A stretch of DNA of 64,000 nt from Defluviitaleaceae bacterium (GTDB lineage: Bacteria > Bacillota > Clostridia > Lachnospirales > UBA5962): NCBI GenBank assembly GCA_009779915.1, contig WRBA01000007.1, forward strand, positions 1 through 64,000, read 5' to 3'. Below, one piece after another: positions 41,890-64,000 of this stretch. Position 1 is the stretch's first letter. Every line of letters begins with the position of its first letter. Position numbers and translations under genes: made by a program. The notes under the pieces were generated by a model. That model was not told the DNA's origin. It worked only from the letters and a program-made list of their open reading frames with translations, and did not search any database.

Positions 41890-42121
41890 AAATAAAAAAC
41901 GCCCCTAAAATAGGGGCGAAATAATCCGCGGTACCACCCTGATTGCGCTTATAAAATAAGCACCACTCATAACCGATTAACGCTCAGCACACGCCCATAG
42001 GGAAGTTGTATGAAAAGCAGCTTCAGCAACACGCTTGTCCGAAAACCTTTCAGCTATAAGTTTTCTCTCTTTAGGAGGCGTAATTACCTACTCATCTTTT
42101 CCTCTTTTGCTATATTTACCT
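41890..42121 (-). promoter_or_regulatory. T-box riboswitch upstream of alaS
   Basis: On the minus strand the T-box core GGTGGTACCGCGG (41926-41938) is followed by an intrinsic terminator, CGCCCCTATTTTAGGGGCG with TTTTTTATT (41891-41918), just before the alaS ribosome site. Upstream lies a long structured leader of about 180 bases. Uncharged tRNA pairs with the leader and favours the antiterminator, so alaS is read only when alanyl-tRNA is short. The specifier codon was not assigned with certainty. Confidence 0.95.
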
Positions 42122-57736: not shown

Positions 57737-57795
57737 ACCACCCTACCACAAAAAGCAAGCATGGGAGCTTTTATGAGCAAGATACATCGCATATC

Positions 57796-58093
57796 GTCAT
57801 TAATGTTGTAGTGAAATTAGCGTTCGCACTGTCATTAGATATGTACCGAAATTGAATTTTGCTGGTCATTAGAGTTGTAGCGAATTAGATTTTTGCTCGT
57901 CATTGCTAGGAGCCTAATGCGCTGAAAGCGTGTTGGCACAAAGTGCGTTAGCGACGGGTTAATCTATAACCTATTACGTGATGAGATTGCTTAAGGCTCC
58001 CGCTACCCATTAAAGCAAAGCTTTAATGGGTTCCCGCTCGCCCTCGCAATGACGAATGACGAGCAAAGAAGTTAATTTCGTTACAACTCTAAT
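57796..58093. repeat. Composite repeat element: degenerate 34-bp tandem units and flanking inverted repeats
   Basis: The 57737-58115 gap has no gene. Units starting GTCATT at 57796, 57831, 57865 and 57899 have a period of 34-35 bases. The stretch 57868-57906 is matched in reverse at 58046-58093 (ATTAGAGTTGTAGCGAATT against AATTTCGTTACAACTCTAAT). Inside are TCATTGCTAGGAGCC and CTCGCAATGACG, like the GTCATTGCGAGGAGC repeats seen in many bacterial genomes, and a CCCATTAAAGC / GCTTTAATGGG hairpin (about 58007-58031). Confidence 0.6.
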
Positions 58094-58115
58094 TACAGAT
58101 AAGCAAATTATCCCT

Positions 58116-58850
58116 TCACATTTTCCTAGCTTTAATTACAAAAGTTACGGGAAAGATTTTAGCTTTCCTTGCTAAAACACCGCTGCCCTTTCTGAGCATA
58201 TTTTCATCGGATTCCTCTATCACTTTTTCAATTAAAAAACCTGCTTTTGCCAAGGCATTTAAATAGGTAGACAGCTTATAATCCGCCAGCATAAGAGTAC
58301 CCTCACCAAGAACCAGCGGATACCTGGACTCATCAAAATAGCATTTTTTAAATACAAATTCATCATTCTCTGCGGCAACACATTTATGTATAGGATGTGA
58401 CCAGCTGAAAATAAATACGCCGTCTTTTTTTAAATAAGAAGCAATCTTAGAAAAAGTAATGTCAAGATTAGTACTCCATCCTATAGCGTAAATCGAATAA
58501 ACAAAGTCGAAATAATCTGTTGGTATGCCACACTCCTCTTCCATAGGAGAACATATAAATTTTGCCGTAAAACTGTGTTTATCCAAAAGTTGTTTCGCTT
58601 TTTCGATTTGATTTTCTGATATATCCATACCCCACATTTCAGCGGGTTTCCGCTCTCCGATATACTTTAAAGAGCCGCCGTTTCCACAGCCTATCTCCAG
58701 CAGTTTTTTCCCTGAAATGTCGCCAAAGAGTTGATGTTTTTCCTCCGAAACAAATAATCCGTATTCAGGCAGTACAATCGCGCTTAAAATCTCATTCCCT
58801 CTCGTGCTCCAATATAAGGCGTTTGTTTTATAAACCTCATCTTTTTCCAT
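58116..58850 (-). CDS. Class I SAM-dependent methyltransferase (operon member)
   Basis: The 244-residue protein has SAM-binding motif I LLEIGCGNGGSLKYIG, GMDISENQIEKAKQLL as the second strand, and FDFVYSIYAIGWSTN. It resembles small-molecule methyltransferases of type 11/25; the acceptor is unknown. It starts one base after the LeuD-like stop, so it belongs to the aminotransferase/hydro-lyase operon and probably modifies the same metabolite. Another in-frame ATG at 58871 would overlap the preceding gene. Confidence 0.87.
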   Translation of the reverse strand: MEKDEVYKTNALYWSTRGNEILSAIVLPEYGLFVSEEKHQLFGDISGKKLLEIGCGNGGSLKYIGERKPAEMWGMDISENQIEKAKQLLDKHSFTAKFICSPMEEECGIPTDYFDFVYSIYAIGWSTNLDITFSKIASYLKKDGVFIFSWSHPIHKCVAAENDEFVFKKCYFDESRYPLVLGEGTLMLADYKLSTYLNALAKAGFLIEKVIEESDENMLRKGSGVLARKAKIFPVTFVIKARKM

Positions 58851-58851
58851 A

Positions 58852-59364
58852 TTACACCGGCAGCCTTTCATATTTATTCACATATTCAATCAACCCGCCC
58901 ACCTCATAGAGGGCTTTATTTATGAGGCTTAATTTACCTAAATTTGCTAAAATTTTGCCTTGGGTAATCCCTGTCAATAAGCCGTTTTCATCCAGTTCAA
59001 TCTCCAAAAAATCCCCATCCTGAAAAAAGTCTGTATTCCCTTCAATCAGCAATATCCCATTGTTCATAGCATTGCGATAAAAACTGCGGGCGAAAGATTT
59101 TGCGATAACTACATCAAAACCCGCCGCTTTAACCACCATAGCAGCCACTTCCATAGCCGAACCGCAGCCGAAATTATGCCCTGCCGATAATATATCACCC
59201 TGTTGGATTCTTTCAAAAAAACCTTCGGCTATATCGGCGAAAATATACTTCTTCAAAATATCACAATCCGTTGTATCACGCTTATGCCTCGAGGAAATTA
59301 TATAATCCGTATTAATATCATCGCCAAATTTATGGACAAAGCCTTTTTTTATACTCTCACCCAT
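58852..59364 (-). CDS. Aconitase/isopropylmalate dehydratase-like small (swivel) subunit
   Basis: The 170-residue protein resembles LeuD and homoaconitase small subunits: DDINTDYIISSRHKRDTTD (15-33) is the substrate loop region and IAKSFARSFYRNAMNNG a conserved stretch. However, the usual NFGCGSSRE(H/Q)A motif reads NFGCGSAMEVA (64-74): Met replaces the catalytic Arg. Either the substrate is unusual or activity differs. ATG 59364 follows GGAGG and overlaps the large-subunit gene by eight bases. Confidence 0.82.
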   Translation of the reverse strand: MGESIKKGFVHKFGDDINTDYIISSRHKRDTTDCDILKKYIFADIAEGFFERIQQGDILSAGHNFGCGSAMEVAAMVVKAAGFDVVIAKSFARSFYRNAMNNGILLIEGNTDFFQDGDFLEIELDENGLLTGITQGKILANLGKLSLINKALYEVGGLIEYVNKYERLPV

Positions 59365-60616
59365 TAATAACATCCTCCGGATTTGTAATTTCACCTGTTA
59401 TAACGGCGGCGGCACACACTAAAGGGGAGGACAGGTAAATATCTGATTTAATATTACCCATTCTCCCTAAAAAGTTACGGTTAGCAGTGGATAAAACCAC
59501 CTCACCATCTCCGGGCACCCCTGCACTGCTGCCGCAGCATGGTCCGCAGCCCGGCGGCAGTATCATTGCGCCGTGGTCTAAAAATATATTGATATATCCT
59601 GCTTTTACAGCTTCACTATACACATCTTTACTGCCCGGCACTACTAAAAAGCGCACTTTACCTGTAGATTTATGTTCTCTAAGCAATCCGGCTGCCACAG
59701 CCAAGTCCTTCAAGCTGCCGTTTGTACAAGTGCCGAGAAGTACCATATCAACTTTCACACCAATGACATCACTAACAGGTGCGTAAGCGTCAACCTTGTG
59801 AGGCCGCGCCACGCTGCAAGTTACATCAGATAAATTTATTAACAATTCTTTTTCATAAACCGCAGTCTCATCAGGGTGTACTACACCTGATGGATCCAGC
59901 CCCTTATCCAAACACCACGCCTCAGTCACCTTATCAAAAGGCATGATTCCAAATTTCGCGCCGCACTCAACTGCCATATTACAAATGGTGAACCTATCCT
60001 CCATATCAAGAGCAGCAATACCAGAGCCATGATACTCCAAAGCATCGTATAAGGCACCTGAAGCTCTTAACTGCCCTGTTATATACAGTGCAACATCTTT
60101 TACAGTTACATAGCTTTTAAGCTCTCCTTCCAAAACAACTTTTACGGAATGAGGAACTTTAAACCACAACTCCCCAAAATGCATTGCAACCGCCGCGTCA
60201 GTAGCCCCAATCCCAGTCCCAAGAGCTGATACAGCACCATAGGAACATGAGTGTGAGTCCGCGCCGATAAAAAGCCCGCCAGGATATATATGCCCCTTTT
60301 CAAACATAAGCCGGTGGCATATACCCTCACCGCTTTCGTACAGGCGCGTACCGTACTCTTTACAAAACTGTCTAATCATATCATGATGCGCCGCAACTGA
60401 CGCATTAGGGCAAGGTACATAATGATCGATTATAAAACCAATTTTATCTTTATCAAACACCTTTTGATTTTTCAGTTTGTTAAAAACCTCTATAACCCAT
60501 GGTCCTTGGGCGTCGGGTACCATTACAAAATCGACTTTGGAGGTAACTATATCGCCGTGTGCTACCTGGCGGCCGCTTTTTATTGATAGTATTTTCTCTA
60601 CAATAGTTTTACCCAT
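59357..60616 (-). CDS. Aconitase/isopropylmalate dehydratase-like large subunit
   Basis: The 419-residue protein has the archaeal-type LeuC/homoaconitase layout. The 4Fe-4S ligands are Cys297 (LGTCTNGS), Cys357 and Cys360 (GCGPCCG); IGADSHSCSYGA (118-129) is the active-site region. With the small subunit it should isomerise or dehydrate a 2- or 3-hydroxy acid. No leuA or leuB is nearby, so leucine synthesis is not supported by context. ATG 60616 follows GGAG at seven bases. It overlaps the aminotransferase gene. Confidence 0.87.
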   Translation of the reverse strand: MGKTIVEKILSIKSGRQVAHGDIVTSKVDFVMVPDAQGPWVIEVFNKLKNQKVFDKDKIGFIIDHYVPCPNASVAAHHDMIRQFCKEYGTRLYESGEGICHRLMFEKGHIYPGGLFIGADSHSCSYGAVSALGTGIGATDAAVAMHFGELWFKVPHSVKVVLEGELKSYVTVKDVALYITGQLRASGALYDALEYHGSGIAALDMEDRFTICNMAVECGAKFGIMPFDKVTEAWCLDKGLDPSGVVHPDETAVYEKELLINLSDVTCSVARPHKVDAYAPVSDVIGVKVDMVLLGTCTNGSLKDLAVAAGLLREHKSTGKVRFLVVPGSKDVYSEAVKAGYINIFLDHGAMILPPGCGPCCGSSAGVPGDGEVVLSTANRNFLGRMGNIKSDIYLSSPLVCAAAVITGEITNPEDVING

Positions 60617-61889
60617 TGGCAATCTCCATAGTTGCTTTCAAAAACTCGTCCACTTCATCAGCTGTATTAAAATGCATAGGGGAAATACGGACAAGCGAAT
60701 CAAGCCCAAGTGCTTTAAGCTGCCTGCCGGACAAGATATTAGTAACAGCCCTGTCAAACACCACAATACCCTTGTCAATATACTCTTTCACAGCCTCCGA
60801 GCCGGATTTGTTTGCGAATGTAATAGGCAAAATACAATCCCTGTTTGTTAAATCCTCACCGATAAAATGAGTTTTTGCCCCTTTTATATTTTTAAGCCCT
60901 TTGGCTTTATCCGAGCCGTTTAGCATCCTATGAAGTATAGCGCGTTCGTGGAGTGCTATCCCTTCCATTGCTGTGAGAATGCGCTCTCTTCTGTCCGCGC
61001 CTGCACCGAGAGATTCACCGAGCCAATCAAGGTAATCCACAACAACAGACCAGCAGCCCCATGCGGCAGGTTCCGCCGAACCAACTTCCCAATCGGTAAT
61101 ATCCCGCTCTAAAGTACGCTCATGAGGCAGCCTTGCACACCTATCAGACACCCAGCCAATACCTTGCCCCCGCTTGCCAAGCATTTTGTAAGGGGTAAAG
61201 CCTACAGCGTCCACCCCAAGCTCTAAAACGTCCGTAGGACCGTGAGGGACATGTTGGGTTAAATCCAGCAATATGTACAAATCAGGCTTGATTTTCCGCG
61301 CTTCTTCTATAATGGTTTTAGCGTCGCACAGTACGCCGGTGATATTTGAAGCATATATAAATGATAAAAGACAAGTATCTTTATCAATATGTTTAAGTAT
61401 CTCCTCAGGCTTTACCGTGCCGGTTTGGGGGTATGTTTTTGCCACTCTAAGCTCTTTGCCTGCAATGCCGGCATAATATTTTGCGGAATCATATGATGCG
61501 GGATGCTCCAAGTCTGTGGTGACTACATTTGAGCCTTCCACACCAAAAATAATAGCCTGTGTCATATGATATAAAACCCTTGACGCCGTTTGAGAAGAAA
61601 ACACAATGCCGGAATCCTTTGCACCGAGAAAAAGCCTTGTATCCTCCACTCCTTTTACCATCATTTCCTTAAGATGCGCCGAGGCTTTAGACGGTCTGTT
61701 AGGAGAGTCCGGAAAAGCCGTTTCTTTTGCGATAAACTCAGAAACTTTCTTAAGACGCAAAGAGCCTCCCGCGTTTTCAAAATAAATCCTTTTGCCTGCG
61801 TATGGGTCATAATCTACATAATCCAGCCGGGAGCGTATCTGTGCCAATAATTCAGGCGAAAAAAACTCCCCTTGTTTGTACTTGTCCAT
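60609..61889 (-). CDS. Class V aminotransferase / cysteine desulfurase-like PLP enzyme
   Basis: The 426-residue protein has the class V fold: FENAGGS near residue 38, the VVTTDLEHPAS stretch with His129, ILLDLTQHVPHG with Asp209, and the likely PLP lysine Lys235 in GFTPYKMLGKRGQG. The lysine context differs from classical NifS (SxHK), so an aminotransferase or lyase acting on a special amino acid is more likely than a housekeeping desulfurase. It lies between the aldo/keto reductase and LeuC-like genes, overlapping the latter by eight bases. Confidence 0.88.
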   Translation of the reverse strand: MDKYKQGEFFSPELLAQIRSRLDYVDYDPYAGKRIYFENAGGSLRLKKVSEFIAKETAFPDSPNRPSKASAHLKEMMVKGVEDTRLFLGAKDSGIVFSSQTASRVLYHMTQAIIFGVEGSNVVTTDLEHPASYDSAKYYAGIAGKELRVAKTYPQTGTVKPEEILKHIDKDTCLLSFIYASNITGVLCDAKTIIEEARKIKPDLYILLDLTQHVPHGPTDVLELGVDAVGFTPYKMLGKRGQGIGWVSDRCARLPHERTLERDITDWEVGSAEPAAWGCWSVVVDYLDWLGESLGAGADRRERILTAMEGIALHERAILHRMLNGSDKAKGLKNIKGAKTHFIGEDLTNRDCILPITFANKSGSEAVKEYIDKGIVVFDRAVTNILSGRQLKALGLDSLVRISPMHFNTADEVDEFLKATMEIANG

Positions 61890-61906
61890 AACTAGACCTC
61901 CAAATA

Positions 61907-63097
61907 TTATGATTTCATCAGCTCTTCAAAGTTCTTCAAAGCTTCCGGTATATCAATATTTTGCGGACACAATGGGCTGCATAAACCGCAGGATATACAA
62001 TCGGAAGGTCGCTCCCCTTCTTTTAAGGCACCAAAAGCCGACCTTAACATCCAAGCTATTTCAAACCCTGCTTCATTATACATAGTTAAAAGCATAGGTA
62101 TATTAAGACCTTTAGGGCAGGCTTCCATGCAGTATTGGCAGGCTGTACAGGGGGCAAGCTCTGTTACAGTTTCCGCTATTTGCAATAAAGTTTCGGTTTC
62201 ATCTTTCGTCATTGGGTCGTACTTTTCAAATATACTCAAGTTTTCCTTAAGCTGCTCCAGCGTACTCATGCCGCTTATTATAACAGGCAGATTATCAAGG
62301 GACTGTAAGTATCTAAACGCCCAAGCCGCCTGAGAGTCATTAGGACGAAGGGCTTTTAATATATCGTCAACTTTTGTACCTAAATTTGCCAGTTTGCCGC
62401 CGCGCATTGGCTCCATAGAAAGGACGGACAAGCCGTTCTTTGTTAAAACATCATATTTCTTATTAGCTTCCTGAAGGATCCAGTCTAAATAATTTAGCTG
62501 TATCATAGCAAATTCAAACTCTTCTTTACAATTTTTAGCTTTTAAATACTCAAGAAATTTGGCAATCGTATCATGACGGCCGTGAGAAGAAAATCCCAAA
62601 TGACGTATGCGCCCTTTTGCTTTCTCTTTTAAGAGACTATCAACAATACCTATTTCCTCATTGGTATAAATGTTATATGTAGTTTCCGAAACATTGTGCA
62701 GAAGATAAAAATCAAAATAATCAACGCCGCATTTTTCAAGCTGATACTCAAAAATCTCTGTTGGGGACGAGTAGGTTTTGCTATCTAAATTAAAGCCCCC
62801 TACTTCGAGCTTGCCTTCCGCGTATTTTAACATATTGCCCGGCATTTTAGATGCAAGATACCAGCTGTCGCGAGGGTATTTTGACAGAGCCTTGCCAATA
62901 AACACTTCCGAATCGCCGTTATGGTAGAAATATGAAGTGTCAAAATAATTAACCCCATGCTCGTAAGCGTACTCAATAAGCTCTGTGGCTTTTTTGTAAT
63001 CAATAGGGGCACCGTAACCCTGCTCTGTCGCAGGAAGACGCATAACCCCCATACCAAGCCATGAAAGCTTTAAATCTTTAAATTGTTTGTAAATCAT
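61907..63097 (-). CDS. Aldo/keto reductase with C-terminal 4Fe-4S ferredoxin domain
   Basis: The 396-residue protein has an AKR barrel (FDTSYFYHNGDSE with the catalytic Tyr, ASKMPG with the Lys, FYLLHNV with the His) and a C-terminal part with two clusters of the form CxxCxxCxxxCP (CTACQYCMEACP and CISCGLCSPLCP). Such fusions are common in anaerobes and may take electrons from ferredoxin. Substrate unknown. It lies 17 bases before the aminotransferase gene, so it opens the metabolic operon or sits within it. AAAGGAGG precedes the ATG. Confidence 0.93.
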   Translation of the reverse strand: MIYKQFKDLKLSWLGMGVMRLPATEQGYGAPIDYKKATELIEYAYEHGVNYFDTSYFYHNGDSEVFIGKALSKYPRDSWYLASKMPGNMLKYAEGKLEVGGFNLDSKTYSSPTEIFEYQLEKCGVDYFDFYLLHNVSETTYNIYTNEEIGIVDSLLKEKAKGRIRHLGFSSHGRHDTIAKFLEYLKAKNCKEEFEFAMIQLNYLDWILQEANKKYDVLTKNGLSVLSMEPMRGGKLANLGTKVDDILKALRPNDSQAAWAFRYLQSLDNLPVIISGMSTLEQLKENLSIFEKYDPMTKDETETLLQIAETVTELAPCTACQYCMEACPKGLNIPMLLTMYNEAGFEIAWMLRSAFGALKEGERPSDCISCGLCSPLCPQNIDIPEALKNFEELMKS

Positions 63098-63134: not shown

Positions 63135-63959
63135 TTAGCCTATAAACCCAAACAAATTAAACTCCGTAAGCCCCAACGCCAAGGAAACAGCGGCTATAAG
63201 GGCAAGGTGCAGTGGATATGCGATATAAAACAGCCATTTAGCTTTTTTGCCCCGCTCCCCGTTATAATTTCTTATAAGAATCGCGCCTAAAAAGCAGCCA
63301 ATGGCAAATGTAGGCATTGCTAAGGCAACTTCCGGCGCAAAACCAAAGCTGTCAAGGAGATATTGAGCATCTGCTTCCATGCCGGGGGTATTTTTCATTG
63401 CCATTATTGCCATTACTCCAAATGCAGACAGGACGCCGATAACTCCCCAGATTGTCCCTGAAATAACGCCGGGCAAAGTGCGTCTTTTGCTTTCTTCTTT
63501 TATTGTGTAATACCAAAGAGGCACTAAAATACCTATAAACATTAAATCCATAAACATAGCCACTACGCAAGCAACAATAAATAAAAGCCAAAACAAAAAG
63601 CGTGATTTTATATTGTCATACATAAGCAAAACTATAAGGCTTAAATTTATAGTAAACAAAATGTTTAGAAACGGACCGGGCATAACTGCGGTTATGCCAA
63701 GTACCATTGGATGAAATGCTTGAGCTATAAGTCCAAATATTAATAGTCTGGACATATATTTTTTCAAATTAGAAGTATGCTTATAACCTTCCACTACAAA
63801 AAATGCCATTATAGTATAAGTTAAGCCCCCGGCACCATAGAACAGCAAAAGTGCCCCAAAGGGCAAAATCGAAGCCCACGCAATAGCTATATGGTTTAAA
63901 ACCATACCAATTACCGCAATCCATTTTAGTGTATACGCATCAAAAGATAAATTTTTCAT
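63135..63959 (-). CDS. TraX family membrane protein
   Basis: The 274-residue protein has about eight hydrophobic helices and the TraX-type start (LSFDAYTLKWIAVIGMVLNHIA). TraX proteins are related to acyltransferases; the F-plasmid member acetylates pilin, while chromosomal copies in Bacillota have unknown roles, perhaps O-acetylation of surface polymers. There is no conjugation gene nearby. It lies 37 bases upstream of the reductase gene and may be the first gene of that operon. Confidence 0.9.
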   Translation of the reverse strand: MKNLSFDAYTLKWIAVIGMVLNHIAIAWASILPFGALLLFYGAGGLTYTIMAFFVVEGYKHTSNLKKYMSRLLIFGLIAQAFHPMVLGITAVMPGPFLNILFTINLSLIVLLMYDNIKSRFLFWLLFIVACVVAMFMDLMFIGILVPLWYYTIKEESKRRTLPGVISGTIWGVIGVLSAFGVMAIMAMKNTPGMEADAQYLLDSFGFAPEVALAMPTFAIGCFLGAILIRNYNGERGKKAKWLFYIAYPLHLALIAAVSLALGLTEFNLFGFIG

Positions 63960-64000
63960 TTTTCAACCTCTTTCATTATATTATTTATACATTAAGTATA

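Follow-up and report, generated by a model that had tools for sequence, protein, structure and literature searches.

Gene layout of the locus

Near the end of the window (the whole stretch of 64,000 nucleotides that was analysed) lies a compact run of genes. We verified all five open reading frames between 58116 and 63097; all are on the minus strand, and their Pfam matches bear out the families originally assigned to them. The locus comprises the following features.

58116..58850, minus strand: class I SAM-dependent methyltransferase, 244 aa, ATG at 58850 (PF08241, 59 bits)
58852..59364, minus strand: LeuD-like small subunit (remodelled), ATG at 59364 (PF00694 Aconitase_C; TIGR02087 LeuD/DmdB, 146 bits)
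59149..59163, minus strand: GSAME in LeuD, at the position of the substrate-binding motif GSSRE (LeuD alignment rows)
59272..59286, minus strand: LeuD substrate-recognition loop HKRDT (YKFKT, YTKT or YLxT in other LeuD alignment rows)
59357..60616, minus strand: LeuC-like large subunit, ATG at 60616 (PF00330 Aconitase, 297 bits), cluster cysteines C297, C357 and C360
60609..61889, minus strand: class V PLP enzyme (PF00266, 96 bits), Schiff-base K235, without the desulfurase cysteine
61907..63097, minus strand: aldo/keto reductase (AKR) with a C-terminal 2x[4Fe-4S] ferredoxin domain (PF00248, 124 bits, and Fer4)
63135..63959, minus strand: TraX-family membrane protein (PF05857, 77 bits)
63985..64000 (63985-65277 on the contig), minus strand: 3' end, inside the window, of a CitMHS-family carboxylate permease (PF03600, 194 bits)

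As evidenced by the junctions, the five genes form one operon, as had been predicted. The PLP and LeuC genes overlap by 8 nt (ATGGGTAA), as do LeuC and LeuD (ATGGGTGA); the methyltransferase ATG at 58850 lies 1 nt past the LeuD stop, and the 17 nt between AKR and PLP enzyme contain a GGAGG site. The span given for the originally named genes was too short: the TraX gene (37 nt before AKR) and the CitMHS permease gene (25 nt before TraX) precede AKR on the same strand, the latter running beyond the window end. The TraX-family protein is probably part of the same transcript, and the permease is the probable first gene of the operon. No T-box or riboswitch was found near the operon. The original prediction had missed this permease, the altered substrate-binding motif of LeuD and a threonine-dehydratase-like partner found elsewhere. 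The host is described as a gut-type anaerobe.

The methyltransferase reached no NCBIfam equivalog cut-off. Its assignment as a trans-aconitate methyltransferase was rejected, since it scores 30 bits where the cut-off is 297.

The hydro-lyase subunits and their known relatives

Automatic annotation as LeuC and LeuD would suggest that this genome encodes part of the leucine pathway, although searches did not find the remaining enzymes in it. The LeuC-like subunit is the sole aconitase-family (PF00330) protein of the 2.45 Mb genome. Family searches of the assembly, which is 93.6% complete, found neither a LeuB/isocitrate-dehydrogenase homolog (PF00180) nor a LeuA-like, HMGL-type synthase; the only HMGL-like protein resembles an oxaloacetate decarboxylase/pyruvate carboxylase-type subunit. 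The lack of leucine genes originally noted near the locus holds across the whole assembly. Both subunits also score below the 3-isopropylmalate dehydratase equivalogs (TIGR02083, 434.8 against a cut-off of 610.65; TIGR02084, 124.2 against 245.85) and below the homoaconitase (HacAB) equivalogs (NF040615, 419 against 550; NF040604, 126.5 against 230).

Phylogenetic trees of each subunit, the check proposed for the large one, place the window, two Synergistales loci (L004 and L005) and L090 in one clade (SH-aLRT 99) outside clostridial LeuC and LeuD. A topology that forces the window and L004 to group with LeuC is rejected, if weakly (AU p=0.039). A leucine-pathway or citramalate/2-oxobutyrate-pathway LeuCD displaced into a new operon would account for the annotation and for the 43% identity to clostridial LeuC, but it is highly improbable given the missing LeuB-family enzyme and LeuA-type synthase, the scores below the leucine cut-offs, the tree positions and the alteration of both loop and GSSRE. 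On these sequence grounds leucine biosynthesis is ruled out.

The pair retains the hallmarks of LeuCD-type members of the aconitase superfamily, namely the cluster cysteines C297, C357 and C360, with which the large subunit would bind the cluster, and a serine in GSAME, the first of GSSRE, which presumably still acts as the general base. GSSRE is a highly conserved substrate-binding motif (PMC7308503), described as shared by isopropylmalate isomerases and the aconitases related to them. All four distinct clade members (window, L004, L005 and L090) carry GSAME in its place, while every other LeuD row examined has GSSRE or GSSRQ; the KRDT/S loop is likewise restricted to this clade among the rows examined. 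The loss of Ser and Arg after the GSAME serine and the gain of K, R and D suggest a substrate that presents another head group, unlike the usual 3-substituted malates or citrate.

The solved 3-isopropylmalate isomerase (MJ0499/MJ1277) has the same fold family, cluster cysteines and two subunits as the window pair, whereas its YLxT loop and GSSRE are lost here, in a genome without the leucine pathway. Among solved relatives, methanogen homoaconitase (MJ1003/MJ1271) matches the small subunit best, at 124 bits, but keeps a YLRT loop and GSSRE, and the window pair falls under the HacA/HacB cut-offs. 2,3-Dimethylmalate dehydratase (DmdAB), known from nicotinate fermentation, falls within the broad LeuD/DmdB model TIGR02087, as does the window LeuD. 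Aconitase X (cis-3-hydroxyproline or phosphomevalonate dehydratase) provides a precedent within the superfamily for an enzyme whose active site has been remodelled and whose substrate is an amino acid (PMC8184944), although its subfamily is unrelated by sequence to the LeuCD-type enzyme of the window.

In the nearest other LeuCD clade (L091-L097) the pair has a NifV-type homocitrate/Re-citrate-type synthase on one side and isocitrate dehydrogenase on the other; its members are presumably two-subunit aconitases. Like the window pair, these have separate subunits, TDYII at the loop start and a charged loop residue; unlike it, they have YKFKT instead of KRDT and GSSRE instead of GSAME, with LeuC identities of ~45-49%. 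The window pair could accordingly be an aconitase for citrate or isocitrate imported by the CitMHS permease of the same run, with the PLP enzyme merely a neighbor and the charged loop (K/R) suiting a third carboxylate. In the best tree, which has few clade members, the clade stands outside the two-subunit aconitases; placement inside them is not rejected (AU p=0.106). We consider an aconitase unlikely: isocitrate dehydrogenase family members, CitF and an HMGL-type synthase were not found in the genome, leaving the operon without either partner seen in L091-L097, all two-subunit aconitase-type rows have GSSRE, and the adjacency of PLP enzyme and LeuCD repeats with two LeuCD lineages.

The PLP enzyme

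The PLP enzyme displays the class V residues: the Schiff-base lysine K235, the stacking histidine H129, the aspartate D209 and the carboxylate-binding arginine R401. In an alignment of 21 relatives Y234-K235, H129, D209, Q212 and R401 are invariant. The catalytic cysteine that SufS/IscS-type cysteine desulfurases carry in the C-terminal loop is absent, and no conserved cysteine was found across the 21 relatives. An AlphaFold model built from three sequences had a pLDDT of 41.

Solved full-length relatives include FGM3 (~106 bits), a retro-aldol PLP lyase (PMC10367076), but SufS-type desulfurases score equally high against the PLP profile; for the retro-aldol reaction the resemblance is one of motifs. 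Shared with both FGM3 and UstD are an N-A-G-G-S motif, the tyrosine preceding the lysine, R-x-S-x-x-H-[YF]-N-T close to the C terminus and the lack of the desulfurase cysteine. With SufS/NifS among its top solved relatives, the enzyme might instead act on a sulphur amino acid, either as a desulfurase or as a beta-lyase, with LeuCD taking the resulting thio- or hydroxy-acid. This seems improbable in view of the missing catalytic cysteine, the lack of any conserved cysteine in the relatives and the absence of a SufU/IscU-like partner from the operon.

Conserved core and proposed route

Close PLP relatives (72-73% identity) occur in the two Synergistales genomes, L004 and L005, where the PLP gene is directly followed by LeuC-LeuD. 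This repeated adjacency upholds the predicted functional link between PLP enzyme and hydro-lyase. Between L004 and L005 the PLP enzymes are 84% identical and the LeuC subunits just 47%, indicating that two hydro-lyase lineages fill the same slot; both share the LeuD signature of KRDT/S loop and GSAME. The pairing is not obligatory, as the 10 kb contig of G1058 encodes the same LeuCD type but lacks a PLP gene. Plasmid searches returned relatives only at <43% (LeuC) and <=46% identity (PLP enzyme), and a literature search found no paper on the PLP-LeuCD gene pair.

AKR and methyltransferase were looked for in L004 and L005 and not found; other transporters and a threonine-dehydratase-like gene take their place. 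The latter has weak matches only in the window genome (E about 1e-5). Since PLP-LeuC-LeuD recurs without them, these three genes are the conserved core, and the reductase and methyltransferase, originally counted as pathway parts, are lineage-specific additions at best. CitF is present in both Synergistales genomes and missing here, which argues against citrate/citramalate cleavage as a shared step of the module.

Each of the three cores adjoins a transporter (CitMHS, TRAP-TAXI and Dpp-type ABC), and PLP relatives neighbor uptake systems, a racemase and oxidoreductases. Both observations count against a biosynthetic operon in which PLP enzyme, LeuCD, reductase and methyltransferase make a secreted or cell-bound metabolite with an unusual amino acid, as does the absence from the operon of NRPS/PKS, ligase and HMGL-type chain-extension synthase genes. 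LeuCD-like enzymes are used for chain extension in specialised metabolism, and a SAM methyltransferase coupled to LeuD, with an AKR also present, would suit such a role; we nevertheless regard it as quite unlikely.

We favor, with roughly even confidence, a catabolic role: the operon would serve to break down an anionic compound taken up by the cell, an amino di- or tricarboxylic acid being the most likely. The earlier suggestion of a pathway for an unusual amino or hydroxy acid is plausible. Since close homologs of the operon's enzymes have not been characterised, we can only infer the reaction. In the catabolic route the CitMHS-type permease would import an acidic amino acid, to be degraded by the remodelled [4Fe-4S] hydro-lyase and the PLP lyase. 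The altered pocket may hold an amino-acid head, with D facing the ammonium and K/R the carboxylate, while the hydro-lyase would add, remove or shift a side-chain hydroxyl. The PLP enzyme could then cleave the hydroxy-amino acid, either between Cbeta and Cgamma (retro-aldol) or by beta-elimination, and the reductase may take off electrons or an aldehyde/keto product.

More tentatively, and with considerable doubt, a two-subunit LeuCD-type aconitase with a GSSRE site changed to act on an amino acid may, with a PLP C-C lyase catalysing a consecutive step, constitute an undescribed amino-acid fermentation common to this clostridium and Synergistales. If true, the GSSRE-replacing clade with its PLP partner would represent a new aconitase-superfamily reaction and an undescribed anaerobic degradation route. 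Among specific substrates we considered a putative 4-methyleneglutamate route, hydration followed by an aldolase, which is chemically attractive. RraA-type aldolase genes are present in L004.

Operon layout

All five reading frames predicted at 58116-63097 were confirmed at these positions on the minus strand, and family assignment of each ORF bore out the named families: an aldo/keto reductase with a ferredoxin domain (AKR), a class V PLP enzyme, LeuC, LeuD and a methyltransferase. The genes had been described as overlapping or abutting, and their coupling is closer than claimed, with two shared-base junctions and a single base separating LeuD from the methyltransferase.

Junctions within the operon
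PLP/LeuC junction, minus strand: shared sequence ATGGGTAA
LeuC/LeuD junction, minus strand: shared sequence ATGGGTGA
58850, minus strand: ATG start of the methyltransferase, one base past the LeuD stop

AKR is not the first gene: upstream of it the same run continues with a TraX-family membrane protein and then, beyond the window, a permease of the CitMHS family (194 bits), at intervals of 37 and 25 nt. The gene 5' of the permease lies on the opposite strand, thus the operon promoter is probably located at contig positions 65278-65634. No excess of consensus promoters was found within the region. Between rho and the methyltransferase, 57740-58110 is non-coding with repeated-looking segments (GTCATTAGA...). 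Rfam gave a single match across the window, its contig locus L101 and the comparison loci L004, L005 and L090: a T-box leader at 41909-42107 on the minus strand (RF00230, 97.9 bits). Two adjoining M14 zinc carboxypeptidase genes lie 5' of the operon, past the window (L101, contig C7 66269-69605, minus strand).

Conserved core and PLP enzyme

Scanning ~85,000 species genomes with short peptide patterns, which see close relatives only and give counts as lower bounds, yielded at least two close relatives of the PLP enzyme (72-73% identity), both from Synergistales. Their loci, L004 and L005, share the gene order threonine-dehydratase-like, PLP, LeuC, LeuD. In L005 the core is followed by a TRAP permease in fused form and by a TAXI binding protein; the L004 core faces a Dpp-type ABC operon carrying two RraA-type aldolase genes. 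An M14-like protein is encoded after the TRAP genes of L005 (16107-18938). Neither AKR nor the methyltransferase was detected in L004 or L005, therefore the conserved core is PLP, LeuC and LeuD. The original prediction of one small pathway is supported for these three, which recur together, but AKR and the methyltransferase are unproven candidate members.

Between L004 and L005, identity is 84% for PLP and 81% for the dehydratases but only 47% for LeuC and 46% for LeuD. The same slot adjoining the same PLP enzyme is therefore filled by two different LeuCD lineages, our strongest evidence that PLP and LeuCD function together. Literature searches found no publications on this gene pairing. More distant PLP relatives (33-46%) turned up in three sets of other genomes: the class (3 of 390), the order (8 of 391) and Synergistota (3 of 186). 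Among the neighbourhoods inspected none contained LeuCD; symporters, amino-acid ABC transporters and racemase or oxidoreductase genes were found instead.

Across 21 aligned relatives the PLP lysine, stacking His, Asp, Gln and Arg are invariant, and the Arg is expected to bind the alpha-carboxylate. The desulfurase cysteine is missing from the C-terminal loop and no cysteine is conserved across these relatives. The relatives with solved structures are of SufS/NifS type or FGM3; the latter catalyzes a retro-aldol reaction on a gamma-hydroxylated arginine (PMC10367076). The likeness to FGM3 is a motif resemblance, both having N-A-G-G-S and a Tyr immediately before the lysine, a possible counterpart of the catalytic Tyr discussed for FGM3.

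LeuCD clade and leucine pathway

The claim that no leucine genes are near extends to the whole assembly (2.45 Mb, 93.6% complete), in which the window LeuC is the sole Aconitase-family protein and full leu genes were not found elsewhere. The Iso_dh family is absent, so there is neither LeuB nor an isocitrate dehydrogenase of that family. CitF was not found, and the one HMGL-like protein looks like a subunit of oxaloacetate decarboxylase/pyruvate carboxylase. Leucine biosynthesis is ruled out by the lone Aconitase-family protein, the missing Iso_dh family and the lack of any HMGL-like protein but this decarboxylase/carboxylase-like one; assembly gaps might conceal one of these genes, hardly all of them.

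The window, L004, L005 and L090 (genome G1058) form a single clade for LeuC and again for LeuD (SH-aLRT 99), separate from both clostridial LeuC/LeuD and the LeuCD type adjoining NifV/Re-citrate-type synthase and isocitrate dehydrogenase. All these trees were built quickly and contain several long branches. In constrained analyses, joining the window and L004 to LeuC was weakly rejected (p=0.039) and joining them to the aconitase type was not (p=0.106).

In the small subunit, the loop that recognises substrate reads KRDT in the clade (KRDS in L090) and YKFKT, YTKT or YLxT elsewhere. The clade carries GSAME, every other aligned LeuD GSSRE or GSSRQ; compared with GSSRE, the first serine is retained and the following Ser and Arg are gone. 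The first serine of GSSRE corresponds to Ser642 of mitochondrial aconitase, and the Arg, two residues further, contacts a carboxylate of the substrate. GSSRE binds substrate and is conserved in the small subunits of IPMI and in related aconitases (PMC7308503), and Ser642 is the general base of the mitochondrial enzyme (PMC8184944). The predicted LeuC/D-like hydro-lyase thus stands as to aconitase superfamily and LeuCD architecture, but judged by sequence the pair represents a clade with a different substrate-binding motif and is not filed as LeuCD. The clade's type is rare in our sample: of 398 phylum genomes, the window genome and G1058 alone have a LeuC clearly separate from other LeuC types, and in Synergistota 2 of 188 genomes do. 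In L090 (2784-4552) a lone GSAME-type LeuCD is flanked on one side by an M20 amidohydrolase and on the other by an Hsp33-like gene, and its 10 kb contig has no PLP gene.

Proposed pathway and other LeuCD variants

The gene run, its recurrence, the genome context and the motif changes are the observed basis of the following reading. An anionic compound would be taken up and its side chain hydrated, dehydrated or isomerised by LeuCD. In one possible order of steps, the PLP enzyme would next act by cleavage or elimination, and the ferredoxin-type AKR may reduce a product. Conjecturally, the K/R/D loop of LeuD could seat an amino-acid head group. The 'gut-type' habitat is suggested by the relatives and general make-up.

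Other LeuCD variants were met during the comparison. At L096 (7105-11028) and L097 (6673-10928), a NifV/Re-citrate-type synthase, LeuCD with a YKFKT loop and isocitrate dehydrogenase stand in a row; this pair is probably a two-subunit aconitase, easy to misannotate as LeuCD. The variant at L098 (2418-8484; loop YKFQS) has, by eye, fumarase-, malic enzyme-, lyase-family and tripartite tricarboxylate transporter-like neighbours. A second LeuCD of the Synergistales genome G397 (L032, 934-4531; loop YLAET) lies, by eye, 3' of a PrpF-like and an HD-type gene. Many Synergistota LeuD (L111-L125) have another loop type, IIAGKYTKTL, with GSSRE retained.
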